From positions 1 through 53,254 of the IMG/VR virus record IMGVR_UViG_3300048686_001049: DNA of 53,254 nucleotides; one strand, 5' to 3'. The DNA comes from a virus. Numbering within the stretch: the stretch's first letter is position 1; every line of letters begins with the position of its first letter. The translations under genes and the position numbers were made by a program. This document shows, piece by piece, positions 1 to 43,976 of this stretch. The notes under the pieces are model-generated. The model had not been told where the DNA came from. It did not search any database and saw nothing but the letters and a program-made list of their open reading frames with translations.

Positions 1-3000
1 ATAGTAAAGAGACGCAATAAAAAACGCAAAAAATATAAAAAACTAAATGAATTTGATGCGGAAGAATACGCAATCAAGGAAAAAACTTTAGCTTCAGGAA
101 AAGAAAAATTCTTTTATATCCCTGTTGATGTGGAAAATGCTTTTGAAGTAAAATCTTTACTGGACGCAGTACTGGACCACCATAGGGTTGATTCGTTTGT
201 TGATGAATATGGAATTGTTTTAACATCCGGACTAACAGCCGAATCAGTCGATGCAATAAATATTGCAGTAAAAGGCATTGGGACAAGAATAGGAAAAAGA
301 ATTGGCAGCGGTCTAATCGATAGACCGAGAATCGGTGACAGAAGAAGAAGGCTTGGTGGCGGAAGAATTGATATACCTACCGGCGGTATGCGTGGCACAA
401 AAAAACCAACAGGAAACCGTCGCGACGTTGATGCTGATGGTTGGGCTGATGAAGGCACCACGAACCCAGTATGGGTTGGTCTGCCTTCGGGCGCAAACAA
501 AAAACCCACACCATCAGGTACTGGTAAACCCAAAAAACGCACTCCAATCTGGGAGCAAAATCGTCGCCCAAGCCCACCAGTCCCTTCGCGACTCAGAGAG
601 TTGTTGGATGACAAAAAACCAGAATCACGTCGGACACCTCCTCCGGCCCCCCCAAAACCAAAGCCTACAAAAACCCCATCTTCACCACCTCCACCCCCTC
701 GCAAAAAAGAAAAACTATCTTCAGGCACAAAAGATATTACTAGACATCGTTCTGCCAAAAAACTAAAAAATCCAGCCGAAGACGCAAAAGAAACAGACTT
801 TGAAAAGATTGCAAATTCATGGCGCGAACAAGGATTGGGTTGGGTAGAAATTCCGCGATACCCGGCTGACAAAAAACTAAGCAACGATTTCTTACGCGGC
901 AGGGAACTTGGGTACAACCAAGTAAGAGTGATGTGGAATGGTTCGGGCACCTATAAGCGGCCGGCCAATTTTAACGAGAAAGCAAAATCTTCGGTTGAAT
1001 ATAGGACTTGGTTTTTGAACACAGCTAAAACTGCTGGCGAATACATAAAAAACAGCCGTAAAAGCAGTAATACAAGCGAAGCAGAGAAGGAAATAAATTT
1101 TGGCATTCCCGAAGGCATAGAAAACTTTTTGGATGCAGTGAAGCCAAATGTCTCTGGCTTGAGCATGAACGACAGAAGAGAATTTTTTGGTGCACTAATT
1201 CAATATGAGTTAATACCAAGGAAAGACATATTTGGCGGAGATTATGGCTTCAGAGGTGGATACGTACCCCCTAAAGCCATAGAACCTAAACCAAGCAAAA
1301 AACTCAGCAGCGGCAGAAAAGTACCATTCCCTGAAGTAAAACCAAAGCGCACATCAAAACAGCAACGAGATGACGAAAAAATTTACAAGCGTCGCAACGA
1401 CGGAGAGTCTCTCGCCGATGTTGCTGAAAGCCTTGGTCTTTCTCGCGAGGAAGTAAGAAAACGTGAGCAACGACACATGCGTCGTCTTCGCAAAGAAGAG
1501 GGCGAAAGACTAAGTGAAGATTCAAATCGTTCCGGTGAAACACTGTCTTCTGGACGACGAGAGTACGAAGACAAATCAAAGACTTCGGTTAAAAACATGC
1601 CGGCAGATGTTCGGTCGTTTCTGAACCAACAAATCGAATCTCAAAGAAAGATAAACAAAAACTCAGATGTTGCAAAACTCTATGAAAAACTTAGAGATGG
1701 GTTTGAGTTGGACGCCAATGAGCGAGACTTCATTATCGATTTCCTTGACCAAATTGAAAAACTTTCTACGCAAGACAGCCGCGTATATACCCCTGGACAA
1801 AGAGCTTCAGCAAGAAGATTAAATGCGCTTTTGAATAAAGACAACCCAAATTTCCGGGCCCCCAAAGGAACAGAGTTAAGAGACCTTGATGTTCCTTTGC
1901 GTATGGGGGAAGGCGGAAAACTTTCTTCCGGTCTCAAAAAACCAAGAACATTTAGAGAGATGATGACCGAAAGTGACAGACTCAGAGCGCAAGGAATAAT
2001 GTCGGATTCATCATTATTTGACGATGAATGGCAAAAAACTGAATATGGCATTAGAATAAATGCGCCAGACATTGATGGCTCTTATGAAATACAAGGCAAC
2101 GCTAAAGATGGATTCGTAGTCTCTCGTATTGCCGACGCCGTACGTAACGGTGGTCAAGAGGCCAAAGAGTACGAACATGATAAAGTTTTTAAATCAAGAG
2201 CTGCAGCAAAAAAATGGGCAGCAAGAGACTATAAGCTGATATCTCAAGAGGTAGGTCTTTCTTCTGGACGTAAAAAAAAAGGGAAGACAACTAAACGTAA
2301 ACCATTCTCCCCTGAGGACCGACAAAGATTTGCTGACGGAGACCGGTTAAAAGCCAGAACAATTCCGAGCAAAAAGAAGCCTGGCCCAAGTATTGATGAA
2401 TTCAGATTAAGCAGTGGATATGGCGGAGGGTCGAGACCTGCTCGTCGCCTTGCTCAATTGAATCGCCGAGAAGTTGAGCAAATCTATATTCAAGAATCTA
2501 GGGGCATGGAAGAACAGGCTAAAAATCTTTTAGCCAATCTCAAAACCCCATCGTTTGACGAAAGCCTTGAAAAAGGTTCAAAATTAGAGACCATTCGTGG
2601 AAATCTCAAGAAAGCATTCACAACTCCAGCGCTTGTTGGTTCTCTGTCGGATAATAAAAACAGAAAAAAAGACGGACCATGGATGCTTTCGTTTGAAAAA
2701 TTAAGACCCCTTTTGAGAGACCCTAAGGGCGAACCAATGTCTGATGAAAACATTAAAAAAATGTTCAATCTCAATGAAGACGAAATGAAAAAATTGCTAG
2801 GGAAAAACGGCGCAATATCGTCTGCTTCTGTTCAGTCGTATTTGACTGCACATTCGGATACTAACTTGCCCGGCGAATCAGATGGACTAATCAGAAAAGT
2901 TTGGGGATTTGATTCTGCCCCATATTGGTATGACGGCCTAGAAGATAATAAGCCAGTAAGTCGTGAGGATTATGACGCCGCCAAAGACGAATCAACCTTT

Positions 3001-6000
3001 TTGGGTGCCATCTACCCCTTAGATGCACCTATAGATTTTAAGACTTCAACCGAAATAGATGAAGACGCTCTTCCTAAAAAGAGAGAAATAGTTGTTGCAG
3101 AAGATGTAAAGCGCTCAATAGAAAGCGTGAAAGGAAAAGAATCTAAAGAGGCCTACAGTCTTGACAAGTTAATTGAAAAACTTAATATGCCAGCTGATTC
3201 AGGAAAAAATCGAGAAGAAATAGCTAAAGCTTTTGAGAAGTTACTAGGGGTCCCAACTAGCACGGAACAATTATTTACTTCTCCAGGTTCATGGAGAAGA
3301 AATGGTGTACCAACAAATGTGGTTTTAGAATTAAAAAAACGTAAGCACATTACTAGTGCTGCCGACGTTTTTGGTAGTGATGAAGCCAAAAACCTTGACA
3401 AAGCAACAGAACAAAATAAATTCTTTAGTGCTTTAGATAATCTCCTAAGAGCAAATGGGATACAAATAGGAGGAGGTAAGGGCAATCTTTCGGACAGAGT
3501 TATTGGTGAAATTATGGGAGACGCTATTGGCTCTAAGCCTTTGGCAAAAATAGGTCGAGCCTTTAAAAAAGCTGGAGAAGAAAGGCCTTTTACTTACAAA
3601 GTGGGCGCCGCTGTCGTTTGGACTCCAGAAGAAATTCAAAAAACTCTTGATGGAATTAATAAAGCAACAGGAAAAGATTTTAAAGTTTCTGACCTTAAAT
3701 TGAGTAGCGGTAGATTCGGCAAAGGTGAAAGAAAAATAGCACCCAGAGCAGCAACTGCAGTTCAAATGGAAATGGACCCCCGTAATTCCAAACTTGCTAA
3801 AAAAATTACTTATGACCCACAAGACCAAGTTCTTGGAGTTACATATAGGGACACCGGTAAAACTGTTGAATTCAGAAACGTTACATACGAGAGTGCTCGA
3901 CAGGCTGGGGCTTCAAATAATCCAGACAAATTTATTAGAAGCCTGGAAGAAGGTCGCAAGTTATCTTCGGGCAGAACTGGGACTGAATCTTTTTCAGCTA
4001 ATGAATCAATTAACGAAATTGACGAAAGATTGCGTACAGCCAAAAAAAGAGGCTCAAAAGTATTTAATGAAATGCTTCGAGCAGAAAGTAAAAAACAAAG
4101 TTCTCAAAAAGCAAAACCGAATCCACTAGACAAAATGAAAGATGGTGAACGTCTTTCATCGGGCAAACTTGATGAAGTTTATAAGTCAATCACTCAAAAA
4201 TTAATTAAAGCAATAGAGACTGCTGATGGAGATAAGTGGGAAGCCCCTTGGTACAAAGTTGGTGCATTTCCTAAAAATCCAACCAATAAAAACCGTCCAT
4301 ACTCAAACACAAACTTATTGTTCCTATTAATGGCGCAAGAAGATAAGGGATACACGAAACCATATTGGGCAACATACAAGCAGTGGGAAAAATCTGGCGG
4401 CCAAGTCAAGGCGGGAGAAAAAGGAACCAAAATTCTCGTCCCAAGAGTTTACAAAGCAAAAGAAGATGATGAGGGCAACAAGAAGGGCGGCGGAGTATTT
4501 TATTCAGTTGCAACGGTATTTAATGTCGACCAAGTAGATGGCGTAGATGTTGATGAGATGGAAAATAAATTTCCAAAACTTTCAGAAGAGCAAAGAGTTT
4601 CTCAACTTGAAAGCGCTATTAAAGAAATAGGTGCAAAGATTACCGAAGCCGCAACTGATAGGGCTTACTACAGTCCATCAAAAGATGAAATAGTTCTACC
4701 AAAATTTGAAAATTTTAAATCTCCTTTGGATTTTTACGCGACTCAAGCTCACGAATTAATGCACTGGACCGGACACACATCACGTCTAAATAGACCAAAC
4801 ATGAATTATTTTGGTAGTCCAGAATACGCATACGAAGAATTGGTAGCAGAAATTGCTTCTGCTTTCTTTATGGCAGCACATGGTCTCTCCGCGGAGCCGC
4901 AGCCACAGCATGCGATGTATCTTGCTTCATGGCTTAAGCGACTCAAATCAGACCCTGATGCTCTGCAAAAAGCAGTGTCCGATGCACAAAAAGCTGTAAA
5001 TTTCGCCATCAAACTATCCCCGAGCATGAGTAAACAAATGGCCGTATCAGAAAACGTAGATGACGTGCCTGGGATAACGGTCCCCGACACTGGCGGTAAG
5101 TTGTCGTCGGGTAAAACTCCTGATTTACCTGCTCTTACTAGGGCGCTCGAAAACGCAGGGCTTGCTGAATCAGTAACCGAAAATATGATTACTGAAGCTA
5201 TTGGTGTATGGAAGGACAACCCTTCGCTACATAGGCAATATATTGAGCGTCTTGACGGAGATGTTAATGGCGCAGTGTTCTCTCTCTATAACGATTATCT
5301 CGAAGATATGTTTGACCGCTCTCCAGAGGGAGCCGCAAAAATAGAACGCGAGCTTAATGAACAATATGAAGCAACACAAAGCCTTTCGTCAGGCAGACCA
5401 TCAAAAAGACTTTCGCGTCGACTAAAAGATGATGAATCATCAAAACTCTCATCTGGCAAGCAACCATGGGATGACCCCGCTGTACAGAAAAGATTAATAG
5501 ACGGTGCAAGAACAAAAAAGAAAACCAAAGCCGATGGTAAAACCGAAAGTTACATGGCAAGCATGGTTAGACAATTTGACGCAGGGAAAAAACTGACAGA
5601 CAATCAGTGGAAACCTCTGTGGGAAAGCTTCGGCGGCGAAACCTCGGCCACAAAACCGAGCACACCGTCGACTGCATCAACAAGTAAAGCCCTTAAGCCA
5701 TTTAGCGGCCTTAAGCGTAAAGAAATAGACCTGTCTGATGTTAAAAAATATGATTACCCAACGACTGATGCTAAAGGAAAGAAAAAACCACTTCCGACAG
5801 AAGAGCAATCAGATGCGATAGATGCAATGATGACCGGTAGCGACGTCAAGGTTGCCGCATTAGCCGCAACCGGTAAAACTACTACGGTAATCAATTTTGC
5901 AAATCGACTTCTAGATGAAGAACCTGAATCAAGAATTCTTTATTTAGTATTTAATAAAAATGCTGAAAGAGACGTTGTAAAACGTGGCATGCCAGAAAAC

Positions 6001-7983
6001 GTAACAGTCAGAACAATGGACGCAGTTGCCTTCCGCGCCATGAAAACAATTGATTCGAAAATGACTGACAAAAGTTTTAATCCATCAATAAAACCAATCA
6101 AGTCTTTCCGAGATAGAGCGGCATATCTTGGTGTCAAGAGAATGGTGTCTCAGGGAGACGAGCTAACATCTGCCGATGTTGTGAAAAGAATAGCAAAAGC
6201 CGTAGAACATTTTTCGATTAGTAGCGATACGGAAATCGGACCACAACATTTTAATGGGAAATTTAATGGAAAGCTTGCTGTCGACGATGATGCAATACTC
6301 CCGGAATTAGTGGCACTTGCCAACAAGTACTGGAAAGACATTAAAACTCCACGAGATGGAGTTGCTGGAATGTTGCCAGTCAATAACACACATATTACAA
6401 AAATGTGGGCTTTATCAAAGCCAGACATAGGTTCGTCAATGGATGTAAATATCGCAATGGTCGATGAAGCGCAAGATATGAACCCGGTTTTTGCTGAAAT
6501 TTTACAAAAAGCAAATAAAGTGCAAAGAATATATATAGGCGATACAAACCAGGCCATAAATGCTTGGCGCGGCGCGGATGGACAGACTCTTGTCGACGCT
6601 CCAGCTAAATACACAATGCCAATAACTGATTCGTTTAGATTTGGTAAAAATATTGCAGGCATAGGCAATAGATTTCTTTCGCTACTTGGAGCTAAGGAAA
6701 AAATGACTGGTCGGAAAGTGGATAAATCTGGCAACCCGGTAGATGGGTTTATTGGGGACGTAGAAAATCCAACAATGATTCTTACTCGCTCAAATGGTGG
6801 AGCGATGGCCGCAACGATGAAGAGTTTTGAAAAAGGCCTAACCGTCTATGGCAGCAAAAACTTCAAAGAAGATTTAACAAAATTTATTGACAATGTTGAA
6901 TACATGGAAACATCCGCTAATGGCAAAAAAGGTTATTACACCAGCGCTGATGGTAGAAAAATCTATGAAAGACCATCAATGAGTCAAGACCTTGATGGCA
7001 TCAGCAATATTGAAGAATTTAAAGAAGCAGTGGAAAAGGGTGATGATAATAGGCTAAATATGCTTAACAAGCTGTTGAGCGAACATGGCGTTGAAGAACT
7101 TCGAAATGCCCTTGGCAGAATCATAACCGATGAAAAAAAATTACCCAAAAACCGTGATGAATATGTTCACATACAGACAGCACATACGTCTAAGGGTCTA
7201 GAGTCGCCCAGAGTCCAGATATGGAGCGATTTTGCTAAACCCAAAAAAGCTACCGATGGCACAAACATCACAATAATGCCCAACGAGCAAGAGCTCAGAC
7301 TTTCTTATGTGGCGGTCACCAGGGCTGAAGAAAAACTAGATTTGGGTTCTTTGTCGTGGATTTATAATCATACGAGCGACGAGGATGGCGCATCGAACAA
7401 ACTCAGTTCTGGTGCAAACTTGTTGATGCCGAGACTTTCTGGAACACTTTCGAACGCCATAATTAATTCAACACCGGCGGCTCGTAAAATGAGAAAAGAA
7501 TGGAAAAAGCGCGAATCAATGTCTGGACACCCATCTAAGAGAAAGGGTATAAAATTAAGTTCCGGAAGATATCTTAATTTTGAACGAATATTGTCTTCGG
7601 ATGAACTTGATGACAACCTAGAACCAATTAGGGGGCCTTATGGGGACCCAAATGACTTAATCCACCGAAAGCAAGTCAGATATGCGGTTCGCCGTTTCAA
7701 ACATACCGAATCCGTTCCAGTCCGTCAGCGTAGTACTGGGCTTCCTACTGGGCGTATGGTTGAAAGAACCAGGACATATTTCTGGATTGAAGACATGAAG
7801 ACCAACCAAACCCCAGTATGGGCTTCAGGTATTTTTTACTACAGAAACCACCTAATAGGAAGATTGCAATCACACCTAAATTCATTGTCGGAAGACGAAA
7901 AAGCCGCACTAGTAAAAGAATACGAAAAAAGTGCCAAAACATTTACCCGTCGCACGAAGGATGAATTAAAAATTCCATCCTAA
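1..7983 (+). CDS. Giant LSSG-linked polyvalent polyprotein 1 (5' end outside window)
   Basis: The frame is open from base 1 with no stop before the ATG at 130, so the true start lies upstream; 2660 residues are visible (numbered here from base 1). Fourteen exact LSSG motifs, at residues 239, 435, 515, 641, 753, 803, 1234, 1321, 1385, 1701, 1795, 1816, 2468 and 2519, cut it into segments of about 15 to 650 residues. Recognisable segments: an N-terminal DxDxDGWxDEGT module (about 120-165); a sigma-like helix-turn-helix (about 471-490); a KTSC-like domain (about 1238-1320); an ArdC-like antirestriction domain with zincin motif HELMH (1584-1588); and a full UvrD/Rep-type SF1 helicase (Walker A AATGKT at 1955, VDEAQD near 2154, then GDTNQAINAWRG, HTSKGLE and YVAVTRA). 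Other segments are unrecognised. Inferred role: a virion polyprotein delivered with the DNA. The domain assignments are by eye; cleavage is a hypothesis. Confidence 0.85.
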   Translation: MVKRRNKKRKKYKKLNEFDAEEYAIKEKTLASGKEKFFYIPVDVENAFEVKSLLDAVLDHHRVDSFVDEYGIVLTSGLTAESVDAINIAVKGIGTRIGKRIGSGLIDRPRIGDRRRRLGGGRIDIPTGGMRGTKKPTGNRRDVDADGWADEGTTNPVWVGLPSGANKKPTPSGTGKPKKRTPIWEQNRRPSPPVPSRLRELLDDKKPESRRTPPPAPPKPKPTKTPSSPPPPPRKKEKLSSGTKDITRHRSAKKLKNPAEDAKETDFEKIANSWREQGLGWVEIPRYPADKKLSNDFLRGRELGYNQVRVMWNGSGTYKRPANFNEKAKSSVEYRTWFLNTAKTAGEYIKNSRKSSNTSEAEKEINFGIPEGIENFLDAVKPNVSGLSMNDRREFFGALIQYELIPRKDIFGGDYGFRGGYVPPKAIEPKPSKKLSSGRKVPFPEVKPKRTSKQQRDDEKIYKRRNDGESLADVAESLGLSREEVRKREQRHMRRLRKEEGERLSEDSNRSGETLSSGRREYEDKSKTSVKNMPADVRSFLNQQIESQRKINKNSDVAKLYEKLRDGFELDANERDFIIDFLDQIEKLSTQDSRVYTPGQRASARRLNALLNKDNPNFRAPKGTELRDLDVPLRMGEGGKLSSGLKKPRTFREMMTESDRLRAQGIMSDSSLFDDEWQKTEYGIRINAPDIDGSYEIQGNAKDGFVVSRIADAVRNGGQEAKEYEHDKVFKSRAAAKKWAARDYKLISQEVGLSSGRKKKGKTTKRKPFSPEDRQRFADGDRLKARTIPSKKKPGPSIDEFRLSSGYGGGSRPARRLAQLNRREVEQIYIQESRGMEEQAKNLLANLKTPSFDESLEKGSKLETIRGNLKKAFTTPALVGSLSDNKNRKKDGPWMLSFEKLRPLLRDPKGEPMSDENIKKMFNLNEDEMKKLLGKNGAISSASVQSYLTAHSDTNLPGESDGLIRKVWGFDSAPYWYDGLEDNKPVSREDYDAAKDESTFLGAIYPLDAPIDFKTSTEIDEDALPKKREIVVAEDVKRSIESVKGKESKEAYSLDKLIEKLNMPADSGKNREEIAKAFEKLLGVPTSTEQLFTSPGSWRRNGVPTNVVLELKKRKHITSAADVFGSDEAKNLDKATEQNKFFSALDNLLRANGIQIGGGKGNLSDRVIGEIMGDAIGSKPLAKIGRAFKKAGEERPFTYKVGAAVVWTPEEIQKTLDGINKATGKDFKVSDLKLSSGRFGKGERKIAPRAATAVQMEMDPRNSKLAKKITYDPQDQVLGVTYRDTGKTVEFRNVTYESARQAGASNNPDKFIRSLEEGRKLSSGRTGTESFSANESINEIDERLRTAKKRGSKVFNEMLRAESKKQSSQKAKPNPLDKMKDGERLSSGKLDEVYKSITQKLIKAIETADGDKWEAPWYKVGAFPKNPTNKNRPYSNTNLLFLLMAQEDKGYTKPYWATYKQWEKSGGQVKAGEKGTKILVPRVYKAKEDDEGNKKGGGVFYSVATVFNVDQVDGVDVDEMENKFPKLSEEQRVSQLESAIKEIGAKITEAATDRAYYSPSKDEIVLPKFENFKSPLDFYATQAHELMHWTGHTSRLNRPNMNYFGSPEYAYEELVAEIASAFFMAAHGLSAEPQPQHAMYLASWLKRLKSDPDALQKAVSDAQKAVNFAIKLSPSMSKQMAVSENVDDVPGITVPDTGGKLSSGKTPDLPALTRALENAGLAESVTENMITEAIGVWKDNPSLHRQYIERLDGDVNGAVFSLYNDYLEDMFDRSPEGAAKIERELNEQYEATQSLSSGRPSKRLSRRLKDDESSKLSSGKQPWDDPAVQKRLIDGARTKKKTKADGKTESYMASMVRQFDAGKKLTDNQWKPLWESFGGETSATKPSTPSTASTSKALKPFSGLKRKEIDLSDVKKYDYPTTDAKGKKKPLPTEEQSDAIDAMMTGSDVKVAALAATGKTTTVINFANRLLDEEPESRILYLVFNKNAERDVVKRGMPENVTVRTMDAVAFRAMKTIDSKMTDKSFNPSIKPIKSFRDRAAYLGVKRMVSQGDELTSADVVKRIAKAVEHFSISSDTEIGPQHFNGKFNGKLAVDDDAILPELVALANKYWKDIKTPRDGVAGMLPVNNTHITKMWALSKPDIGSSMDVNIAMVDEAQDMNPVFAEILQKANKVQRIYIGDTNQAINAWRGADGQTLVDAPAKYTMPITDSFRFGKNIAGIGNRFLSLLGAKEKMTGRKVDKSGNPVDGFIGDVENPTMILTRSNGGAMAATMKSFEKGLTVYGSKNFKEDLTKFIDNVEYMETSANGKKGYYTSADGRKIYERPSMSQDLDGISNIEEFKEAVEKGDDNRLNMLNKLLSEHGVEELRNALGRIITDEKKLPKNRDEYVHIQTAHTSKGLESPRVQIWSDFAKPKKATDGTNITIMPNEQELRLSYVAVTRAEEKLDLGSLSWIYNHTSDEDGASNKLSSGANLLMPRLSGTLSNAIINSTPAARKMRKEWKKRESMSGHPSKRKGIKLSSGRYLNFERILSSDELDDNLEPIRGPYGDPNDLIHRKQVRYAVRRFKHTESVPVRQRSTGLPTGRMVERTRTYFWIEDMKTNQTPVWASGIFYYRNHLIGRLQSHLNSLSEDEKAALVKEYEKSAKTFTRRTKDELKIPS

Positions 7984-8137
7984 AAACTAGTTGTCAATAG
8001 ATGTTTGACAATATCTAATTTATTGATACTTCCCGTATGGGCCTTATGGTAGCGTATACTTTTACAAAGACATTTGTAATTAATATAACGGCCATTTTCA
8101 GGAGTGGCTAAAACAACAAACCCCAGGGAGTCATGAA
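7984..8137 (+). promoter_or_regulatory. Intergenic leader with promoter-like elements and an inverted repeat
   Basis: This 154-base gap contains an inverted repeat, TTGTCAA (7991-7997) and TTGACAA (8005-8011), with a perfect TTGACA inside it. The best hexamer pair I find is TTGATA (8023-8028), 16 bases, TATGGT (8045-8050); TATACT at 8055-8060 is another possible -10. A good ribosome site AGGGAG (8125-8130) sits seven bases before the next ATG. No terminator hairpin is evident after the first gene. Confidence 0.4.
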
Positions 8138-9844: not shown

Positions 9845-9860
9845 AAAAGGGGCACCCGCC

Positions 9861-12800
9861 ATGACGGGGAAGCCGTTTCGCAAAACAAGAATAATAATTT
9901 CAGACAAATTAATATCTGCTCACACCGAGGCTAAAGATACTGATTTTTCTGCACATTTTTTTAAAAATGCCGTTTCTGAATCAATGAGTTCACCTCGCCT
10001 TGACGCTGATTTAGCCATTAAAAGCTTGGGTTCAAGCATTGGTTCAAAGAAAAAGCCAACATACGACAATACGGACAATAAGACCCGAACCAATTCAGGC
10101 GGTGAGCCAGGAATGGTAGTTACCCCCAATGGCTATAGATACCAACCAAAAGAAAAAAATGGTCCAGGCAAAGAACTTGTTTTGTTTCCCTCACAGAAAA
10201 GTCGAGAGTCAAACGGAAAAACCAGTAATTTTGGCTGGCTTGATAGAAAAAATACAAGCAGCATAAAAAACTATATTCAGCATCAAAAAGAACAGCCTCA
10301 AATAAGAATTAGAAAGTTTAAAGTAAACCCTAAGACGGACGAAATTATTCCTGGTTCAGACATAGAGATGTCTCCGTTCCGCAAAGATAATAATTCAGAA
10401 AACAATATTTCTGAAAAAATGCTTCCAGGAAGAACTCTTGGGTCAAGAGGAACATCACTAATAGGTAGGGCTGCAGGAAAATTCGGCATAGTAAGGGATG
10501 CTTTAAACAAGTTCAGATGCCCGCCAGGAACCCCAGCCGCAAACCAATTTACGGACCACATGGGAAGCAATTGCTTTGGTCAGTCAGCAGGAGACTTAGT
10601 TGACTTTGCGATAGACGCTTTTCAAGCAGCCCGCAAAGCTTTCACTGAACCAAACTCTCGAGAAACATTATCTAAATTTTTCAAAGAAGCAGCCTATGAC
10701 GCCGACAATGGAAGATTTGGTTCCTTTTTTGCTCGGACAATGTGGCGCGATGCTGACGGAAACAAAATACGTAATTTACGTAAATGGAACTCAGAACTAA
10801 GAGAGGGTGAATACAAAATATTTGCGGGGGGCATGGCAAATGCACAACTCGAACTTGAAGCTCAAGATAATCGAATAGCAAATCTTCGCGACTTATTGGG
10901 AGTACCAAGCACCCCAGAAACAAGAAAAAACAACGACGACCTTCATGAAATATTTAGGATTTTAAAAGAAAGAGGAATGCTAAATGTAACCCTTGGCAGC
11001 CCAAATCCCCAAGAAGAAGGAGAGGGACAACGACCTACCCCTGAGCAAGTAGCTCAAGTGGTTGAAGCAAGACTCAGGGCAGTACCAGGATTTAGCGAGC
11101 TATCAAGAGAGCAGCAAGAAAGAGTCATTGCAAATGATATTGAAAGATTCTATGAAACGGAACGAGCTTTGTTGGAAGGGTTTTTAGATGAATACGTCAA
11201 AAATCCAGAACATATGGGAACTATCAAAAACCTTATTTATGAATACAAGACGTCGCCACCAGCTGAATTTTTAGATGAAGCGAGCTATAACGTAAATGTC
11301 ATAAATGGCCAAGCTATTGGTGAAATAAGAATTGATATTCCTTTCATAATGCATTCACAAGAAACAATGCTGCCTCAACTGGCAGACAATGAAAGACTAA
11401 GAATTGATGTTGTTGGCGCAAAAACTGATTCTGAAGCGGCTAAACATCTTGGCGATTTCTTACTAACTACTGCTCAGCATTCCAAGCAACATGCGGCAAC
11501 AGTCGAAGAAAGAGGGTTTGCGCGACACATAATCAAACACGAAATAGCACACTCAATTCAGGCCAGGGTGTTCTTTGATGAAGCCAAAAGACAAATTAAC
11601 GAAAATGGCTTCATATCAATTGGGGATAAAAAAATTGAAAGCCTAGATAAATTAACTGGTTCAGATTTGCTTAACCTCATGACCGAATCAGCTGATTCCA
11701 TTAATCTTGAACAACTCAGTAAGGCTTTATCAAGAACAGAAAATATTATGTTCATGGCCGGGGAATACCCTCGAGACTACATAGACAAAGGTCGCGAAAT
11801 CACGGCAATTGAAGCAACAGCAGAGCTTTGGGCTCTAAGAAACGCAGGGCTGATTTGGGGCGACGATGTTGATGCCGCCCTTGAGTGGATGGACAATAAA
11901 GCTGACGGACGAATCGGAGAAAAAAGGGTTCGCTCCGATATTGAAACAATGAGAATTGTTGAAGATTCATATTATCTAAGCCCTGGCGAGTCTTCTGCTC
12001 CTTGGTACGTACCAGAAGACCCAGTTGCCACAGCCGCGGCGAAAAAACGAGCAGAAAATAAAGCGCTTAAAGGTGCTATTGAAAAATTGGACCACGACAC
12101 AATTATTGATGAACTTGCGCAACTCGAATTTAAAAAAGATGAAATTAATTTAAAAATCAATGCCGCAAAAGCCATAGGCGAAGACGTTTCTGATTTAGAA
12201 AAACAATTATCAGAATTGAAGAATGATGAAAAAATTATTCGTTCTGTATGGAAAAAGAAATATGGTACCGGCTCCGAAGACGCTACGGCTCTCAAGCTAT
12301 TAATTAAAAAAAGAAGAGAAGAACATGGTGCATTTACGCCAGACGTTCTTGAATCAAAAATTCGTGACAAAAAAATAATGGCAGCAAAAGCCGATGCGGC
12401 GACTATAGACAGCTTAGATGAATTGGTGCAAATGATGGCGGCTTATGACTTGGACATAAGACTTGCAACCAGCGATAAAGACAAAGGATTAAAGCGTGAA
12501 GAAAGAAAGGCATACCTTAGTCGATACCGAGCACTCCTTGATAAATCCGGCGACTCTCGTAGTTGGGTTGAGCAAAAGCGTGAAATGGAAGAAAAAATAG
12601 ACAGAATTCTTAGGCCTACAAAAACTGCGCCACTCAAAAAACCCAAAACCCCAACAACCGACAAGCAAGCTACAGATGTGGGTAATAAAGCAAGAGAAGA
12701 AGCGCTACGCACAGCTACACCTAGACAAAGAATTGCAGTTTCAGAATTTTCTGACTCACAAACATCTTCAGTAGCTCAGTTGTTTGATGCAGAAAAAAGG

Positions 12801-29575: not shown

Positions 29576-29785
29576 TTACTCTAGTACAGAATCCGCCTCT
29601 ATCCAGACCCTAGCCCCACACTTGTCTGGTGTATCTGACTGCACAACTTTGGCTGCCTCATGTCCACAATTTGAGCAAATTATCGTAATGCTCTTGCTGT
29701 GTTTGGAACCCTTATAGGTCCTATCAATAATCGCAGCGAGGCCTTTTTTAATCTTTTGTTGATGAACGTGAATAATATGTTTCAT
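29576..29785 (-). CDS. Small zinc-ribbon-like protein overlapping tRNA-Arg
   Basis: 69 aa: MKHIIHVHQQKI, then CSNCGHEAAKVV and a further Cys in DKCGARVWIE. The CxxCGH suggests a zinc ribbon. The A of its ATG (base 29785) is also the final A of the encoded CCA end of the upstream tRNA-Arg, so maturing that tRNA would remove the first base of this start codon. No ribosome site is possible except within the tRNA. Function unknown. Confidence 0.6.
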   Translation of the reverse strand: MKHIIHVHQQKIKKGLAAIIDRTYKGSKHSKSITIICSNCGHEAAKVVQSDTPDKCGARVWIEADSVLE

Positions 29786-29860
29786 GGCGCGTCGAGTAGG
29801 ACTCGAACCTACAGTCTACAGATTAGAAGTCTGTTGCCTTATCCGTTTGGCCATCGACGC
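29785..29860 (-). tRNA. tRNA-Arg (anticodon UCU)
   Basis: Cloverleaf on the minus strand: acceptor GCGTCGA (29854-29860) pairs with TCGACGC (29789-29795), anticodon arm ACAGA-CTTCTAA-TCTGT, T-arm with GTTCGAGTC, discriminator G and an encoded CCA (29785-29787). The anticodon reads AGA, the favoured Arg codon of the giant genes but not of the capsid gene, so it probably supplements the host for AGA-rich phage messages. Confidence 0.95.
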
Positions 29861-32211: not shown

Positions 32212-32216
32212 ACCCC

Positions 32217-33155: not shown

Positions 33156-33199
33156 AAATTTAATAATTTCTCTTTCTCAAAAAAGAAAAAAATAGCGCC

Positions 33200-33613: not shown

Positions 33614-33635
33614 TTACACAAAAGGGAGTTAGTCG

Positions 33636-34031: not shown

Positions 34032-34032
34032 A

Positions 34033-36702: not shown

Positions 36703-36724
36703 ATAATTAATAAACCTTGTTATA

Positions 36725-36752
36725 TCGACTTCAGGTCGACAGAGCATACAAT
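36725..36752 (+). promoter_or_regulatory. Candidate promoter of giant protein 3
   Basis: TCGACT (36725-36730), 16 bases, TACAAT (36747-36752). The -35 lies inside an inverted repeat TCGAC-TTCAG-GTCGA (36725-36739) that could be an operator. The start point would be near 36759, six bases before the ATG at 36765. Confidence 0.4.
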
Positions 36753-36764
36753 AGATATACCACT

Positions 36765-39700
36765 ATGTTCGAACCAATCATTATAAAGCTTGACTACTCG
36801 CCACGAGACGAAAGACATAGCAAGCAGATAAAAAGCGTGGCATCTAGACTCGGTAAAAGAATTGGTAGAGGCCTGGCGGGCAGGCCAAATATTGGTAAAA
36901 ACAGAAGAACGATTGGTTCTGGAAGAATTGACATACCCACTGGTGGTGTGCGTGGATACAAGAGACCAACAGGAAATCGTCGCGACATTGACAGAGATGG
37001 CTGGGCAGACGAAGGCACAACTAACCCTGTATGGGTCGGGCTGAGCGGTGGGCGAGATAGACCAATTATTGAAACCCAAAGAGCTAGACCAAAAATAAAT
37101 TTAAATAATCAAAAAATAAATGAAAGAAAAAAAATTCGCCAAAAAATTAAATATGGCGAAAGTTCTTTGGATGGTAAATTAATTAGTAAAAAAAACGGCC
37201 CCAAATGGTTGAATGGATTAAGCAATGAGCAGATTTCAAACATCCTCGTCCCCGACTCGTATCAGACTTATTCTCAAATGCTGGCCGATGGATTCGGTGT
37301 CGACAAAGAGACTATAGAAAAATATCTTGAATCTAGATGGGGGGTTGGAAAGCCTTGGTTGGAAATTGATTACTCGGAAAGTTCAACTAAGCAATTAAAA
37401 CAAGCACTCAAAACTGCTCTTGACGAATCGCCTATTTTTTCTTGGGCCGTAAGAAATTACGGCTCACCAACATATACGGTAATGACCAGAAAAAGTGCAG
37501 AAACATACAACAATCGAGATGCAGTAAGGCCATTATATGATGCACTCAAAAAAATGTATCCAGATGCACCTGGAGAGCCACAATTTGCCGCAAGCAATCA
37601 TCTTGATTTTGAAATGGTGACTTTTAATCCAATCAATGTGATTGATAAAAAATCATGGCAAACAAATGAACCAATTTCAAGCAGCTTTCAAACGTCTAAA
37701 TTACCATCTAGCTCCGACACCGTAATAGATAGAAGCATCTCTGGAACTATTTTGCATGAATGGGCTCATTGGTATCACTCTGAGATGCTTTTGGCAAATA
37801 TTGAAAGTTCCGAAAATAAAAAACGGTCACCCAAATCTCTAGTTAATCCTCAAGATTCAGATTTTGCCGAAAAAATAAAAATTGCACTTGAGTACAATTC
37901 TGATAATGGAAACATGAATCTTCATTCAACAAAAAAACCACTAGAAGATTCACAGAACGAGCCAAGGACGATTACATCTTATGGGCACGTGAGCAGGAAG
38001 GAAATGTTTGCAGAAGGGATGCTTGCCTATATGCACCCTAATGAGCAGCTAAAACTTAAGGCAATAAATAAAAAATTGAGACAAGATATAGAGACAATTT
38101 TAGCTGGAGATAAGGGCGTTGATGCGTGGAAAGACAGTAAGGCAAACATAAGAAGAGAAAAAAATATTTTAAGTTCGGGTAGAAAAAATCGTAAGCTAAC
38201 AAAATTGTCATCAGGTTCAAAAACTGAGGAACCCGAAAGACCAACGTACCCAAGACACCCTAGCTATGGTCCATTCCTTGATGGCGCTGATGACGTGTTT
38301 GCGGATGTAAAAAACTGGAAAGAATTCAAAGAAATTTACGATAATTTAGAAATAAATTTCTTTGACTACGAAACCACTGGATTGGTTTCTGACGAATTTC
38401 GACAATCGTCCGGTAATGGCGCTCCAGTGCAGTTTGGTGTAACAAAGACCAAAGGCGGCAAGGAAATTGGTCGACTAAATATTTTTATGAACCCGGGAGA
38501 AGAGCTTGGGGATTGGTCGAAAAAAAATCTTAAAAACAAAGACGGAGAACCACTTACTGACGAATGGCTGTCATCTCAAATATCGATAGCTGATGCGCAT
38601 AAAAAATTAATCGAATTTGTGGGTCCTGATGCAATTTTTGGAGTTCAAAATGCAGTATTTGATAAAACGGTACTAGAAGATGCACTGACATCATCAGGCA
38701 TCGAATGGAGACCAAAGGGCTGGGTAGATACGAAAGTTGTATCCGACTTAGTAATTCCTAAATGGACAAAAGAAAATCAAGACGCACCTTGGACTACTGA
38801 CGGGAAAACTGGTGAAAAAATTCCGTCAAGTAGCCTAAAGGCTTTGACCGAATATCTCAACATAGACCTTGGGAAAAAACACCATACAGCAGACGCTGAT
38901 GCGGCAGCCACATCAGAGTTGATGTCAAAAATTATTGATAAAGCAATTGAGAAAAATTGGAGCAACGATATTTTTGATAAAAATTGGCGCGACCAAAAAA
39001 TCAAAGACAAATTAGAAAACTATCAACAAAAAATTATTGATTTTGAACAACAAAAAAGTAATTGGATTTCTGAAACGTCGCCTAAAAAATCCACAGTGCC
39101 AAAAGAAGTGGAGAAAAAAGAATTTGGTTTTGGTAGACTATCTAGTGGTACCACTTCGTACAAGGGCCGTCACGAATCTCCTGATGCGTCAAGTGGGGCA
39201 CCTCTACACAACCTGGCTAATGGCGCCATATATCCAGAAGATATCTATGGTCCAAATGGGGCGAACCTTTATGGGGGCGCATTCCCGGATTTAGCTCAAA
39301 AAGCTGTTGCTATTTTTAGAAAACTCCGCAATAAACCAGACTCTGAATTAACCATATATAGGGCGGTCCCAAGGGGCAAAAACATTAAAGAAGGCGACTG
39401 GGTAACGATTCTCCCCGAATACGCAAAAATACATGGAGATAGTTGGTTGAAAGACAACTATGAAATAGTGACCAAGAAGGTAAAAGCAAAAGAATTATTT
39501 AATGAAGGTAATTCACTTCTTGAATTTGGTTATCACTCAAAATTGTCTTCTGGCAAATACGATGGTGCCCCTACGTATAAAGGAAAAGTCTGGAAAGATA
39601 GAAAAAACGAATTAGATGGCCCTGTGTGGCCATTTCGGTCTCAAGCCAAACAGTACCCAGACGATGGTCCGTCGGGAATTTCATATTTTAAAGGCGTAGT

Positions 39701-42700
39701 TGATGATTCAACATGGGTTGATTGTCTGCTTTATAGAGATGATTCAGGAAAAGTTATTGGCATCTTAAATCATTATCCATTTGCTCTTGTGGACCCAGAT
39801 GACCCGCGAATTGTGGAAAGACGCGGGAATATTAATATCTTTATTGACCCAAAACATCAAGGTAAAGGTATAGCGACAAAACTTGTAGATGAAGCAGTTT
39901 CTCGATATAACGTCGACCTACGCAGGCAGCGATATAGCGAAGATGGCGCAAATTTTATAAACAGGTATATACGTAAGCTTCCCGAAAATAGGGATAAATC
40001 AAAACTTTCATCTGGAAGCCAACCACGAATAAATCTTTCTGATGAAGAAAAACGCGAAATCATAGCTATCGCATCTCAAAGAACCGATGATTTCTCAAAA
40101 AGTGTTGTTGAGCAATTCAGAAGGAATGGAAAGCTCTCAGATAGACAATGGAACGCCCTTAATAAAGCGACTCTTAGACGTTCAAGATTAAGTTCTGGAA
40201 TGAATACCCCTGAACTCAGCGAGATGAGCAAGCAAAGACTTCAACGCCGAATTGACTCATATGAAGCCGCAGTAAAAAAGGGAGATGGTAGTGAGTCTAA
40301 ATTACCATGGGATAAAAATGGGAAAATTAAAGAAAAACCAATTATTGTTTCTGAAGTAGATGACGACTACGACGATGACGAAGAAATGAGTGCAGAAGAA
40401 AAAGAAAACCAAGCCGCATATCGCGAAACTTCAAATATTAGTCCTGCAGAGATGGCTAGAAGAATAGAGCGAGAAAAAGCATCCAAGGAAAGACTCTCAT
40501 CTCCTGAGTACTTAGAGGAGAGTCGCCTTAGGCGTGTAGCAAGAAATAAAGGTAAGGAAACCAGCACGCACAACGCAGATGGAACGTTGAAAACAGAAAA
40601 TAAACCGAAACTATCGTCTGGTAAAACCAACAGAGCCAATAGAAGAGCCAATAATTCAAGATTAAGCTCGGGTAAAAACACTGACACCGAGCCTCAGTTT
40701 TTGCCAATCGAAAACCTAACAGCGGCACGAGACTCGAATACAGATACAAATCTACAAACACCCGCAAAGAGACGGGTGTATGTGAAGTCAAAGATACCAA
40801 AGGTCGGTCGGTTTAAAGAAGCAGACTACCCGTTAAACGTTCAACTGTCTATCGTAGAAGACTATAAAGATAAAAGAAAAACACTTTCTTATATTGCAAA
40901 AAAACACAATGTCTCTATTAGTGTCGTCCAATTTTTGGCACGGCAATATAATTTGCCATACAGGGTAAACAATCCGAAGTCTCCTCGACGACAAAGAATT
41001 ATTGAAGCCATCAGAAACGATATGCCGTTTGAAGAAATTATGGAAAAATTCAATACCTCAAGAGAAGAAGTGATAAAACTTAAAAATATTTCAGAATCTG
41101 CTAAAGCAAGAAAATTAAGACTAACTAGAGAAAAGATTAGAAGACAAAAAAAAGAAGAAAAAATAATCCAACTATTTAATGATGGTTTAAGAATCACCGA
41201 GGTTGCGAGGCTCACCAAGATGGATATCTCGGCAGTAGCCGACGTGTTGCTTGCCAACGAGGGAACAAAACCAAAACTAATAGCGAGAAGGGACGGAAGT
41301 CAGCCTTATCGGTCGATTCTTATACCACAGGTTCGTGAACTATTTAAAAATGGACTGAACATCGCCCAGATTGGAAAAACACTAAAAAAAGACATTAAAA
41401 TAATCCGCAAAATTGTAAATGAAGATGAGGAATTATCAAAATTGCAAAGAGAAAGAATTAAGAAAAGATTTTTACTTGCTCAAATTAGTGAGGAACTTAG
41501 AGAATTTTTCATAAACGGTGGGAGCATGGAAGGCGCAATTGAAAAATTTGGTTTATCACGAAAGCAGATTAAACAATGGAGAGAAAGACAAGCGGCACAA
41601 TCACAAAAACAACCAGGAATACCCCGACTACCCCGACTACAAAGAGGACTCGAGAATGGAACGTTGAAAACAGAAAATAAACCGAAACTATCGTCTGGCA
41701 AAACCAACAGAGCTAACAGAAGAGCCAATAATTCAAGATTAAGCTCGGGTCAATCACCAGTTTTTGATGACCAAGAAAAAAAACAAATACTTGACACTTT
41801 GGAAAAAGAATTCCCCGGCGGAATAACTAATACGATAGCGAAAATTGCAGACTATTCGGGAAGTAGGTTTCAAAATAATAAAAATGACCAAGTGGAGCTT
41901 AGTCCAGAAGAAAAAAAAGCTGTTAAAGCACTTGAAGATTTAGGCAAAATAATTGACCAAAAAATATCAAAATTGATTAATGAAAGAAAGACCACAGAAG
42001 GCTCGAAAGAATCTCAAGAAATACGTTTATTATCTGAAAAAGAAAAAACATACCAAAAAGTTGCTAGTTATTTTAACGCAATACAAAAGGTTATTGACAG
42101 CAAGTATGAGGATGTGGCCAAAATCGACAAACAGGTAAGGAAATCAATAGTTTCCAACATATATAAAATTCCAAAAAAAACGTCAAACATAGACATGGAA
42201 TATATGATGAATAGCAACAAGATATCTGGCTCCCATTTAGTTCAACTAATAAAAGATGTCAGAAAAAATTTAACTGCCGGAGAACTCCTTAAGATAGATG
42301 ATGCCTGGGATGGCTTCTTTGACGGCCAACCGGTAGTCAATTTTAGTGATAGCACCCGCTATTACATTAAGAGTTGGAAAGACAGGCTATACCTTACGGA
42401 TTTAGTTAGTGAAGCCGATATGGCATTTTTAGAATTGAAAGAGAATAAAGCAATCACACACGACATCATGAGGACTCTAAATCTTGCTGACCAAATATTA
42501 AAATCTCTTATTCAACAAACTCAAAGAGAAGAACGTAAAATTTCAGAATTATCAGATGCGGAAGTATTGGATTTTATAGAACGAGAAATATATCAAAACG
42601 GAGAGGCTTTTGGCCCGAAACTTGGTTCAAAGAAATATCGTCGAAACATATTAACCGGTCAAGCGTTTACTTCTGGAGAAGATTCCCCAAATCCACTTCC

Positions 42701-43976
42701 CGAACTTAATGAACCGCCTTTAGTTGCCGTGTTTAATGAAAAATCAGCAAAAGATTTACTCATTAAGACAATACGGGAAGCACTTGTAGACGAAGACGTT
42801 AATCAAGTATTCAATAAATCACTTAAAGCAAGAGAAGATATTGGTGTTGATTATGATGAAAAGCTTGGCGAAGGTGTCAACTCGCAATACCTATTGCCAC
42901 AAAATCTTCCATTCATAGAATTTTTAAAATTATATAATGAGAAACGTTCTATTTTTCAAAGGGAAACATTTGAGCTATTAAAAGAAACACAATCTCTGAC
43001 CGAGCGAGGCTCTCTGCCAGAGCTTACAAAATATGGGCTTCAGGATTTCCTAGAAAGACAAGAAGCAGAACTAAAAAGAGAATTATTTGTTCAGGCCTTG
43101 GGGGAATTAGGTGTTAGATTTACGCAACCAGAAAATGTAAAAAAAACAGTAGTTCGTCTTTATATGCAAAGATTGAACGACTTTTATCTATGGGCTAAAA
43201 ATCTTAACCCTAATGAAGACTTCGGTAAATACAATCCGTATGAGTACATAGGTGGCGAGAAGGGACAGCGACACGCAACGACCATCCCATTAATGAACAA
43301 AGTTTTATCATTAATCCCCGAGAATTTAACCAATGGTTCATTGATTGTTGAATTACCGCCCAAAGAAGCTGAAAGACTTGCAAACCTAGGAGCCGCAGAA
43401 ACGTTTGGTTATTTAGGGAGACAACGAGCCATTTCAAAATATTTTTCTGACGCATGGAATAAAAACCCTCTTGAAAAAGGAGGTCATAAATTAGGTATAA
43501 TTTGGCGTCTTGTGCCAGGAAAAAACAGGGCTCATGCACATAATGTTCTAAACGGAAAAGTTTTAATTACCCAAGAACCAGCACCAGTAGATGGTCCCAC
43601 AGATGATTGGGAGTCAGTGGCTTTGCACGAAATATCTCACGGCGTTGAATACGCCAACCCGGTTGTGACCGCGCTCGAATGGATGTACTGGGCGTCTAGA
43701 AGAAAAGCGAATGAGCAAATAGTAACGTTACGACATAAAAACGGGAAAAAATATAGAGATAAAAGCGAAGTTGGTATAGTTGATGAATGGGGAAACAGCT
43801 ATGCGGGCAAAATATATCAAGGAAGACCATTTGATGCTTTAGAGATATTTACCACCGGTATGCAAGCGATATTTTACGAAAATACAAGCAAAAATGCAGA
43901 CCCTTCACATAGGGCGTTTACGATTGGTGTTCTGATAGCGACTGGACTTGCCGATAAGGGAGGGTCTAATGGCTAA
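36765..43976 (+). CDS. Giant LSSG-linked polyvalent polyprotein 2
   Basis: 2403 aa from the ATG at 36765; a TTG at 36717 would add 16 residues but overlaps the promoter. Ten LSSG sites at residues 469, 481, 792, 927, 1081, 1142, 1283, 1300, 1642 and 1659; LSSPE at about 1246 is a degenerate one. Segments: N-terminal module shared with polyprotein 1 (about 50-95); zincin HEWAH (331-335); DEDDh exonuclease (D534, E536, H707-x4-D712); ADP-ribosyltransferase-like (IYRAVP, R866, then YAKIHG and LLEFGYH); GNAT acetyltransferase (QGKG 1032-1035); a small QF..NGKLSDRQW motif near 1115; an array of about five helix-turn-helices (1305-1640) inside a repeat-flanked cassette; and a large helical C-terminus with zincin HEISH (2288-2292). 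Domain mix indicates a virion-delivered polyvalent protein. The activities are inferred from motifs. Confidence 0.85.
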   Translation: MFEPIIIKLDYSPRDERHSKQIKSVASRLGKRIGRGLAGRPNIGKNRRTIGSGRIDIPTGGVRGYKRPTGNRRDIDRDGWADEGTTNPVWVGLSGGRDRPIIETQRARPKINLNNQKINERKKIRQKIKYGESSLDGKLISKKNGPKWLNGLSNEQISNILVPDSYQTYSQMLADGFGVDKETIEKYLESRWGVGKPWLEIDYSESSTKQLKQALKTALDESPIFSWAVRNYGSPTYTVMTRKSAETYNNRDAVRPLYDALKKMYPDAPGEPQFAASNHLDFEMVTFNPINVIDKKSWQTNEPISSSFQTSKLPSSSDTVIDRSISGTILHEWAHWYHSEMLLANIESSENKKRSPKSLVNPQDSDFAEKIKIALEYNSDNGNMNLHSTKKPLEDSQNEPRTITSYGHVSRKEMFAEGMLAYMHPNEQLKLKAINKKLRQDIETILAGDKGVDAWKDSKANIRREKNILSSGRKNRKLTKLSSGSKTEEPERPTYPRHPSYGPFLDGADDVFADVKNWKEFKEIYDNLEINFFDYETTGLVSDEFRQSSGNGAPVQFGVTKTKGGKEIGRLNIFMNPGEELGDWSKKNLKNKDGEPLTDEWLSSQISIADAHKKLIEFVGPDAIFGVQNAVFDKTVLEDALTSSGIEWRPKGWVDTKVVSDLVIPKWTKENQDAPWTTDGKTGEKIPSSSLKALTEYLNIDLGKKHHTADADAAATSELMSKIIDKAIEKNWSNDIFDKNWRDQKIKDKLENYQQKIIDFEQQKSNWISETSPKKSTVPKEVEKKEFGFGRLSSGTTSYKGRHESPDASSGAPLHNLANGAIYPEDIYGPNGANLYGGAFPDLAQKAVAIFRKLRNKPDSELTIYRAVPRGKNIKEGDWVTILPEYAKIHGDSWLKDNYEIVTKKVKAKELFNEGNSLLEFGYHSKLSSGKYDGAPTYKGKVWKDRKNELDGPVWPFRSQAKQYPDDGPSGISYFKGVVDDSTWVDCLLYRDDSGKVIGILNHYPFALVDPDDPRIVERRGNINIFIDPKHQGKGIATKLVDEAVSRYNVDLRRQRYSEDGANFINRYIRKLPENRDKSKLSSGSQPRINLSDEEKREIIAIASQRTDDFSKSVVEQFRRNGKLSDRQWNALNKATLRRSRLSSGMNTPELSEMSKQRLQRRIDSYEAAVKKGDGSESKLPWDKNGKIKEKPIIVSEVDDDYDDDEEMSAEEKENQAAYRETSNISPAEMARRIEREKASKERLSSPEYLEESRLRRVARNKGKETSTHNADGTLKTENKPKLSSGKTNRANRRANNSRLSSGKNTDTEPQFLPIENLTAARDSNTDTNLQTPAKRRVYVKSKIPKVGRFKEADYPLNVQLSIVEDYKDKRKTLSYIAKKHNVSISVVQFLARQYNLPYRVNNPKSPRRQRIIEAIRNDMPFEEIMEKFNTSREEVIKLKNISESAKARKLRLTREKIRRQKKEEKIIQLFNDGLRITEVARLTKMDISAVADVLLANEGTKPKLIARRDGSQPYRSILIPQVRELFKNGLNIAQIGKTLKKDIKIIRKIVNEDEELSKLQRERIKKRFLLAQISEELREFFINGGSMEGAIEKFGLSRKQIKQWRERQAAQSQKQPGIPRLPRLQRGLENGTLKTENKPKLSSGKTNRANRRANNSRLSSGQSPVFDDQEKKQILDTLEKEFPGGITNTIAKIADYSGSRFQNNKNDQVELSPEEKKAVKALEDLGKIIDQKISKLINERKTTEGSKESQEIRLLSEKEKTYQKVASYFNAIQKVIDSKYEDVAKIDKQVRKSIVSNIYKIPKKTSNIDMEYMMNSNKISGSHLVQLIKDVRKNLTAGELLKIDDAWDGFFDGQPVVNFSDSTRYYIKSWKDRLYLTDLVSEADMAFLELKENKAITHDIMRTLNLADQILKSLIQQTQREERKISELSDAEVLDFIEREIYQNGEAFGPKLGSKKYRRNILTGQAFTSGEDSPNPLPELNEPPLVAVFNEKSAKDLLIKTIREALVDEDVNQVFNKSLKAREDIGVDYDEKLGEGVNSQYLLPQNLPFIEFLKLYNEKRSIFQRETFELLKETQSLTERGSLPELTKYGLQDFLERQEAELKRELFVQALGELGVRFTQPENVKKTVVRLYMQRLNDFYLWAKNLNPNEDFGKYNPYEYIGGEKGQRHATTIPLMNKVLSLIPENLTNGSLIVELPPKEAERLANLGAAETFGYLGRQRAISKYFSDAWNKNPLEKGGHKLGIIWRLVPGKNRAHAHNVLNGKVLITQEPAPVDGPTDDWESVALHEISHGVEYANPVVTALEWMYWASRRKANEQIVTLRHKNGKKYRDKSEVGIVDEWGNSYAGKIYQGRPFDALEIFTTGMQAIFYENTSKNADPSHRAFTIGVLIATGLADKGGSNG
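40579..40673 (+). repeat. 95-bp direct repeat, copy 1
   Basis: Encodes NGTLKTENKPKLSSGK and a second LSSG after RANNSR. It is identical to 41656-41750 at 92 of 95 bases; all three differences are silent (GGT/GGC, GCC/GCT, AAT/AAC). Confidence 0.95.
41656..41750 (+). repeat. 95-bp direct repeat, copy 2
   Basis: Second copy, offset 1077 bases (359 codons) from copy 1. Recombination between the copies would remove the helix-turn-helix cassette and keep the reading frame. Confidence 0.95.

Follow-up and report, generated by a model that had tools for sequence, protein, structure and literature searches.

The subject of this account is a stretch of viral DNA of 53,254 nucleotides (IMG/VR virus record IMGVR_UViG_3300048686_001049, positions 1 to 53,254; the whole of it is called the window here) and the three giant proteins that it encodes, GP1, GP2 and GP3. 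These giants carry a short reiterated peptide tag, in this phage [KR]-L-S-S-G, at which we infer that they are likely to be cut. The tag is greatly enriched in the giants, lies at the boundaries of their modules and changes from lineage to lineage; the modules that it joins occur as free genes in some relatives; and a prohead protease domain is fused to the start of GP1. We suggest that GP1, GP2 and GP3 are phage polyproteins, whose effector and virion modules would be made as giant chains and separated by proteolysis after translation. The chains would probably be late products that enter the prohead, GP1 by virtue of its fusion to the maturation protease and GP3 perhaps by way of a module that it has in common with GP1; cleavage would release many small proteins, which could pass out through the tail together with the DNA. 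As the cutter we consider the S78 prohead protease at the N-terminus of GP1 most likely, and the main alternative is a set of metallopeptidase domains within the chains; if cleavage is granted, we lean towards the S78 enzyme.

In a count across all six frames of the window, LSSG occurs 14 times in GP1, once in GP2, 10 times in GP3 and once in a protein of 672 amino acids (aa; positions 18913–20931), 26 copies in all, with one further copy at 33575, inside an open reading frame (ORF) of 137 aa. K or R precedes 21 of the 26 and follows 16. These figures agree with a preliminary description made from the letters of this DNA, which had reported 14 copies in the first giant, 10 in the third and one in each of two capsid-region proteins, and the same two counts for K or R. 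It had also expected fewer than one copy by chance, and composition-preserving shuffles (5000, with a maximum of 2) give on average 0.086 for GP1, 0.056 for GP2 and 0.074 for GP3, or 0.22 for the three together against the 25 observed, which rules out chance or composition as the source. Between them the copies use every Leu codon and every Ser codon (six each), and those in the giants comprise 24 distinct 12-mers among 25, close to the 24.3 predicted by free codon choice; thus selection acts on the peptide, as had been proposed, and a DNA repeat is ruled out. The sole repeated 12-mer sits within a small recent duplication in GP3. Only 12 of the 26 copies match the form first proposed, [KR]LSSG[KR], in full, and [KR]-L-S-S-G describes the tag of this phage better. 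The LSSG at 20137 ('KAIDHLSSGGSL') does not bear the lineage signature and, like that at 33575, is probably a chance occurrence; 'GLASGEC', in the Cys-rich N-terminus of the protein beginning at 8138, was not taken as a site. The GP3 duplication (about 40580–40673 and 41657–41750) consists of a short basic linker with a tag at each end (KLSSGKTNRANRRANNSRLSSG), and basic spacers of this sort (GRKNRR...) adjoin tags in relatives too.

Relatives were found in IMG/VR by way of the capsid protein (the best 80 of 278 stretches), and the whole contigs of 23 of them were compared (designated by G numbers). LSSG-type tags are present in 15 further contigs, among them G001, which is nearly identical to the window. 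In these 15, ORFs of 1200 aa and more, which we call giants, hold 0.4–2.6 LSSG per 1000 aa against 0–0.3 in the remaining ORFs, and collagen-like or secreted-looking and other large ORFs are mostly free of it. Each lineage tends to have its own version: GLSSG makes up 15 of 16 copies in G006, SLSSG 16 of 20 in G007 and RLSSG all 20 in G013; G002 has a mixture of RLSSG and RLASG; and FSSG is commoner than LSSG in G023 and G036, the former having 15 copies of RFSSG. Among the LSSG genomes, the residue before L and the identity of L or F depend on the genome (chi-squared 628, 126 degrees of freedom), and 166 of 283 tags have the modal residue; none of 5000 permutations gave more than 119.

Other relatives, in sister lineages, have the same kind of giants with different tags, detected by unbiased pattern counts: ISG[RK]M in G037 (14 copies), [IV][ST]GxM in G016 and G021, VVGxM in G044, [EDS]AGM[SATG] in G040 (24 copies), and GF[AS]S in G042 and G043 (14 copies in the latter); such counts gave no clear tag in G041. 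These non-LSSG tags number 6–24 copies, against 0.32 or fewer in shuffles, although the patterns were picked post hoc, so that the shuffle figures understate chance somewhat (not by the factors observed). For the tags of G006, G007, G023, G037, G040 and G043, the small ORFs hold 0–2 copies each (shuffles again giving at most 0.32). In all five classes the residue after the large hydrophobic one is small (L or F is followed by S or A; M by S, G, A or T; and the F of the GF[AS]S class by A or S), M being followed by R in about 15% of the ISGxM sites. This suggests a core site common to all classes, a large hydrophobic residue (L/F/M) and then a small one (S/A/G/T), surrounded by residues that differ by lineage.

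The tag might instead have spread at the level of DNA, as a short recombination homology at joints or as a selfish linker multiplied by duplication, and the strongly different module order among relatives and the one local linker duplication in GP3 are in keeping with this. We nevertheless consider it very improbable: the diversity of 12-mers is that of free codon choice, distant lineages have wholly different tags at the same joints, and a DNA-level process yields no concerted change of peptide.

The joints themselves can be followed from genome to genome. In most of the relatives examined a lineage tag lies ahead of the GP3 exonuclease module, mostly about 5–25 residues upstream: KLSSG in the window, RLSSG in G020, G017, G015, G031 and G036, SLSSG in G007, MSSG in G003, LASG in G013 and RFSSG in G023 and, in other lineages, ISGAM in G021, ITGFM in G016 and ISGRM in G037 (no tag was seen ahead of this module in G002, G035 and G040). 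The sequence behind the module varies between relatives. The GNAT module, 51% identical between the two, is flanked on both sides by KLSSG in the window and by VSGRM and ISGSM in G037. For 410 tags in 63 giants, the closest end of a cross-genome alignment is at a median distance of 10 aa, against 43 for random positions (the lowest of 500 sets being 32.5), which supports the first impression that the tags lie mostly between recognisable domains; they also stay at orthologous linkers while the modules around them are reordered, a point that the preliminary description had proposed to check. That description had counted it against a processing site if related phages should have no LSSG at equivalent linkers. 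This is what the sister lineages look like, yet each of them has a tag of its own at those linkers, and that speaks more strongly for the reading than a conserved LSSG would.

The flanks of tags are more disordered than other sequence (disorder scale, P = 2e-40), and in an AlphaFold2 model of GP3 residues 480–1110 the predicted local distance difference test score (pLDDT) is below 50 at every one of the five tags; it reaches about 97 in the exonuclease and is lower in the ParB-like and GNAT modules. By sequence and model, then, a consensus site appears to occupy accessible linkers between modules, as in processed polyproteins. Disordered stretches would equally suit a flexible Ser/Gly linker of a generic kind that nothing recognises in trans, but we find this hardly credible, since exact tetrapeptides exceed chance more than 100-fold, K or R is fixed before L, the switching between lineages is coherent, and ISGRM and EAGMS are not linker-like.

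The comparison of fused with free versions of a module bears on what the tag does. Among 67 stand-alone ORFs related to segments of giants, one has a lineage tag, and that one is a partial tape-measure protein; because many of the 67 matches involve no more than a short module in common, most weight falls on the cleanest cases. The last module of GP2 starts 5–7 residues behind an FSSG in G012 and is a separate gene adjoining GP2 in G031, G003, G023 and G006, and G031, G003 and G023 encode one zincin module of GP3 as a gene by itself, with no tag. Where one phage has a module as a free protein and another has it joined by the tag, the simplest explanation is that the tag is cut. The contrast would also separate cleavage from docking, in which a lineage-specific partner (scaffold, chaperone or portal) binds an uncut chain at many points. 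A fast-changing partner would likewise drive concerted change of the tag, and a tag in the presumed tape-measure protein (see below) suits a shared assembly factor, but docking leaves unexplained why tags sit at module ends, why free genes are untagged, and why modules are either tag-fused or free; we regard it as improbable. Of the two roles first proposed for LSSG, cut site and docking or linker signal, module ends, disorder, lineage switching and free genes thus favour the cut site. The 'about 25 small proteins' first predicted can stand as an upper bound, because GP2 has a single site and cleavage is itself deduced.

GP1 has no start codon in the window, since the contig begins inside the gene, which is why the S78 part is absent there. 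In G001, GP1 is 3112 aa long (94–99% identical in aligned pieces), with about 450 more residues at the N-terminus. This terminus is a Peptidase_S78 domain (PF04586, E-value 2.9e-11; 44.2 bits against a cut-off of 21) and matches the head maturation protease family phrog_80 (E-value 2.4e-27). The annotated capsid maturation proteases of phages DalanDe and Cantare, and their homologue in GMA6, match the first 200 or so residues of GP1 relatives. The candidate catalytic residues H64 (VVWGH) and S128 (EWSIGY) are invariant in 19 of 19 sequences, and the top structural matches of a modest model (pLDDT 71) are T4 gp21 and the herpes assemblins, weakly so (E-value 0.03 at best). The domain begins a frame of 1938–4807 aa in 31 of 38 relatives, and in the other seven is a separate ORF of 568–896 aa. 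In a tree of S78 domains the LSSG genomes form one group (support 98/95), and the whole labelling by tag requires five changes, the minimum. A four-Cys module that follows S78 in GP1 is also found as a free gene, in small ORFs of 117–132 aa in G016, G037, G031, G023 and G042.

Several observations weigh against cleavage of prohead-loaded chains by S78. At least four of the seven relatives with a separate protease still have tagged giants, and fusion is thus unnecessary. The S78 domain keeps 70–86% identity to that of G001 in lineages whose tags are very unlike, and no lineage tag is found in the capsid protein, which such a protease classically cuts, so that S78 may not be the recogniser; plain descent could equally yield the association between tags and the protease tree. 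The residue before L is mixed in some LSSG genomes (G030, G035 and G012), some module boundaries have no tag, and GP2 holds one site only. Finally, the presumed tape-measure protein, whose assembly takes place outside the prohead, has the lineage tag near residues 35–43 (RLSSG, KFSSG, RFASG and LTGAM among them) and often a second around 560–830. Its homologues occur in G003, G012, G017, G020, G023, G030, G031 and G035; its identity rests on a sheath–tube–chaperone-like gene order and marginal BLAST hits, and the candidate had no match in PHROGs. Its tags suggest that one factor processes both this protein and the giants. A conserved S78 domain, an untagged capsid protein and a tagged tape-measure protein together would call for an S78 enzyme that recognises a loose core and acts partly before the prohead closes, or for another enzyme.

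The other enzyme could be one or more of the zincin-like metallopeptidase domains inside the polyproteins, cutting the tags by autoproteolysis, before packaging or after injection. HExxH, counted as a sequence pattern, occurs in giants of every genome examined, including all three of the window, and GP1 has a PF18818 domain; embedded peptidases have been proposed to free the domains of other polyvalent proteins of phages and conjugative elements, in a paper that also draws an analogy with RNA-virus polyproteins (Iyer et al., 2017; PMC5512222); and cutting by such an enzyme would account both for the untagged capsid protein and for the conserved S78 domain. Set against this, a metallopeptidase module of GP3 is in three genomes the tag-free stand-alone gene already described, the modules span several unlike families, which makes one code per genome harder to explain, and a pattern count makes active enzymes only putative. 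We judge this alternative unlikely, though worth keeping in view beside the S78 enzyme. A single open frame of 7362 aa in G002 (27637–49722; L159–L160) has six HExxH motifs.

Among known systems, GP1 and GP3 fall with polyvalent proteins, holding between them ArdC-N, MPTase-PolyVal, UvrD, helix-turn-helix (HTH), exonuclease, ParB-like and GNAT domains. They resemble the multi-effector giants with MPTase, ParB-like and GNAT domains of Iyer et al. (2017; PMC5512222), which are thought there to travel with the DNA; but the assemblin-like peptidase is reported there to be always C-terminal, whereas S78 is N-terminal here; the available part of that paper mentions no reiterated junction peptide, and frames extend to 7362 aa here. 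The protease fusion and a site beside the capsid genes are suggestive of possible delivery into the host with the DNA. T4 gp21 and SPN3US gp245 (the latter with 14 sites in nine proteins; PMC10052503, PMC7411985) are alike in that one phage protease acts at a short motif on several head and ejected proteins, and gp21 shares the broad protease fold with the S78 domain (a weak structural match). They mainly remove N-terminal propeptides from separate proteins and, unlike what is proposed here, separate no multi-effector chain; their site is a glutamate motif, whereas LSSG-type tags have no Glu at a fixed position. The tag system thus falls outside the glutamate-motif processing of the T4 and phiKZ type, though by analogy it may work alike. 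The prohead protease–capsid protein fusions of PAJU2 and Nocturne116 ORF18, for which self-cleavage has been proposed (PMC8306868), resemble GP1 in having the protease fused in frame to its substrate, but have a single product, the capsid protein, with no reiterated sites or effectors. In phage P1 the prohead protease trims an anti-restriction head protein (DarA/Hdf; PMC12810830), but by one N-terminal trimming and with separate genes. The open-access literature that we searched makes no mention of the tag, and in it we found neither a lineage-switched joint tag nor an N-terminal prohead protease on effector chains.

Positions of the tags, giant proteins, modules and associated genes (window coordinates, save for the presumed tape-measure protein)
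Feature	Positions	Strand	Basis
GP1, giant polyvalent polyprotein, 2660 aa within window, N-terminus missing at contig end	1..7983	+	
LASG (TLASGK), possible variant site, GP1	88..99	+	
Module common to GP1 and GP3 (GRIDIPTGG-RG-KRPTGNRRD-D-DGWADEGTTNPVWVGL), GP1 copy	283..510	+	
Tag KLSSG-T, GP1	715..726	+	six-frame LSSG count
Tag KLSSG-R, GP1	1303..1314	+	six-frame LSSG count
Sigma-70 region 4-like helix-turn-helix, GP1	1375..1494	+	PF04545
Tag TLSSG-R, GP1	1543..1554	+	six-frame LSSG count
Tag KLSSG-L, GP1	1921..1932	+	six-frame LSSG count
Tag GLSSG-R, GP1	2257..2268	+	six-frame LSSG count
Tag RLSSG-Y, GP1	2407..2418	+	six-frame LSSG count
Tag KLSSG-R, GP1	3700..3711	+	six-frame LSSG count
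Tag KLSSG-R, GP1	3961..3972	+	six-frame LSSG count
Tag RLSSG-K, GP1, directly ahead of ArdC module; conserved linker	4153..4164	+	
ArdC N-terminal (anti-restriction) domain, GP1	4174..4485	+	PF08401, E 2.7e-26
Zincin-like metallopeptidase MPTase-PolyVal, GP1 (HELMH)	4603..4980	+	PF18818
Tag KLSSG-K, GP1, behind ArdC/MPTase module	5101..5112	+	
Tag SLSSG-R, GP1	5383..5394	+	six-frame LSSG count
Tag KLSSG-K, GP1	5446..5457	+	six-frame LSSG count
UvrD/REP-type helicase domain, GP1	5800..7338	+	PF00580, PF13361
Tag KLSSG-A, GP1, behind helicase module; conserved linker	7402..7413	+	
Tag KLSSG-R, GP1	7555..7566	+	six-frame LSSG count
Acidic protein, 568 aa	8138..9844	+	
GP2, giant of 2649 aa with a single LSSG and a zincin-like HEIAH motif	9861..17810	+	
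Tag KLSSG-K, the only one of GP2	13545..13556	+	
HK97-fold major capsid protein, without lineage tag	22963..24318	+	PF05065
GP3, giant polyvalent polyprotein of 2419 aa with ten copies of LSSG	36717..43976	+	
Module common to GP1 and GP3, GP3 copy	36846..37046	+	
Tag ILSSG-R, GP3, zincin/exonuclease joint	38169..38180	+	
Tag KLSSG-S, GP3, ahead of exonuclease	38205..38216	+	
DnaQ-like exonuclease module, GP3	38352..39047	+	
ParB C-terminal-like module, GP3	39123..39554	+	phrog_2579
Tag RLSSG-T, GP3, exonuclease/ParB-like joint	39138..39149	+	
Tag KLSSG-K, GP3, ParB-like/GNAT joint	39543..39554	+	
GNAT acetyltransferase module, GP3	39714..39902	+	
Tag KLSSG-S, GP3, behind GNAT	40005..40016	+	
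Tag RLSSG-M, GP3	40188..40199	+	six-frame LSSG count
Tag KLSSG-K, GP3, duplicated linker copy 1	40611..40622	+	
Tag RLSSG-K, GP3, duplicated linker copy 1	40662..40673	+	
Tag KLSSG-K, GP3, duplicated linker copy 2	41688..41699	+	
Tag RLSSG-Q, GP3, duplicated linker copy 2	41739..41750	+	
Presumed tape-measure protein	L181:9974-15481 (G013); L231:4934-9877 (G016)		

The module common to GP1 and GP3 (59% identical between GP3 and the GP1 of G001), ending in DGWADEGTTNPVWVGL, is also present in polyproteins of relatives and is a possible virion-targeting signal. GP3 contains, besides its exonuclease, ParB-like and GNAT modules, an HTH and two zincin-like motifs, HEWAH and HEISH, and residues 1958–2134 of GP2 match phage 'head morphogenesis' proteins. 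The acidic protein upstream of GP2 is a possible scaffold, its C-terminal stretch resembling, as judged by eye, the protease-scaffold proteins of Gordonia phages. A Cys motif is found in virion-region proteins (RCPPGTPAANQFTDHMGSNCFG in GP2, about 10515–10590; RCPEGYQYGGRFTDSRLSTCG in the protein beginning at 18913, about 19285–19355), and such motifs (RCPP, CPPG, NCFG) are enriched across the giants of relatives.

By capsid protein, the closest isolates are Brevibacterium phage Cantare and Gordonia phages like GMA6, DalanDe and Gray; the virion proteins examined in GMA6, DalanDe and Cantare had no LSSG and no clear reiterated tag. LSSG was considered as a capsid maturation site and rejected, LSSG-type tags not being found in the N-terminal 170 residues of the capsid proteins of 21 relatives. 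A similar-looking capsid sequence, SLANGR/ALNGGR, is conserved but invariant across lineages, and was left uncounted. The contig has a WhiB gene, which indicates an actinobacterial host, and capsid relatives occur in three metagenome-assembled genomes, one each of Actinomycetota, Phycisphaerae and Acidimicrobiia; the hosts of this family of uncultured phages are probably actinobacteria. The window also encodes a B12-dependent ribonucleotide reductase (29878–31803), adjoining or overlapping a tRNA-Arg(tct) gene (29785–29860).

In its fullest form the proposal is of a strategy like that of RNA viruses, with three chains that would release many injected effectors, one reiterated site, a cognate protease fused to the first chain, a tape-measure protein as a further substrate, and a code rewritten repeatedly, at 10–25 sites at once, within one family; on this whole we are evenly divided. 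If it is true, tailed phages employ genuine multi-product polyproteins, and the reiterated tag would be an annotation-free means of dividing giant phage proteins into the mature products, for the most part unknown effectors. The tag offers direct and cheap predictions for virion proteomics, and its switching across whole lineages would provide a natural series on the joint change of a protease and its many sites.
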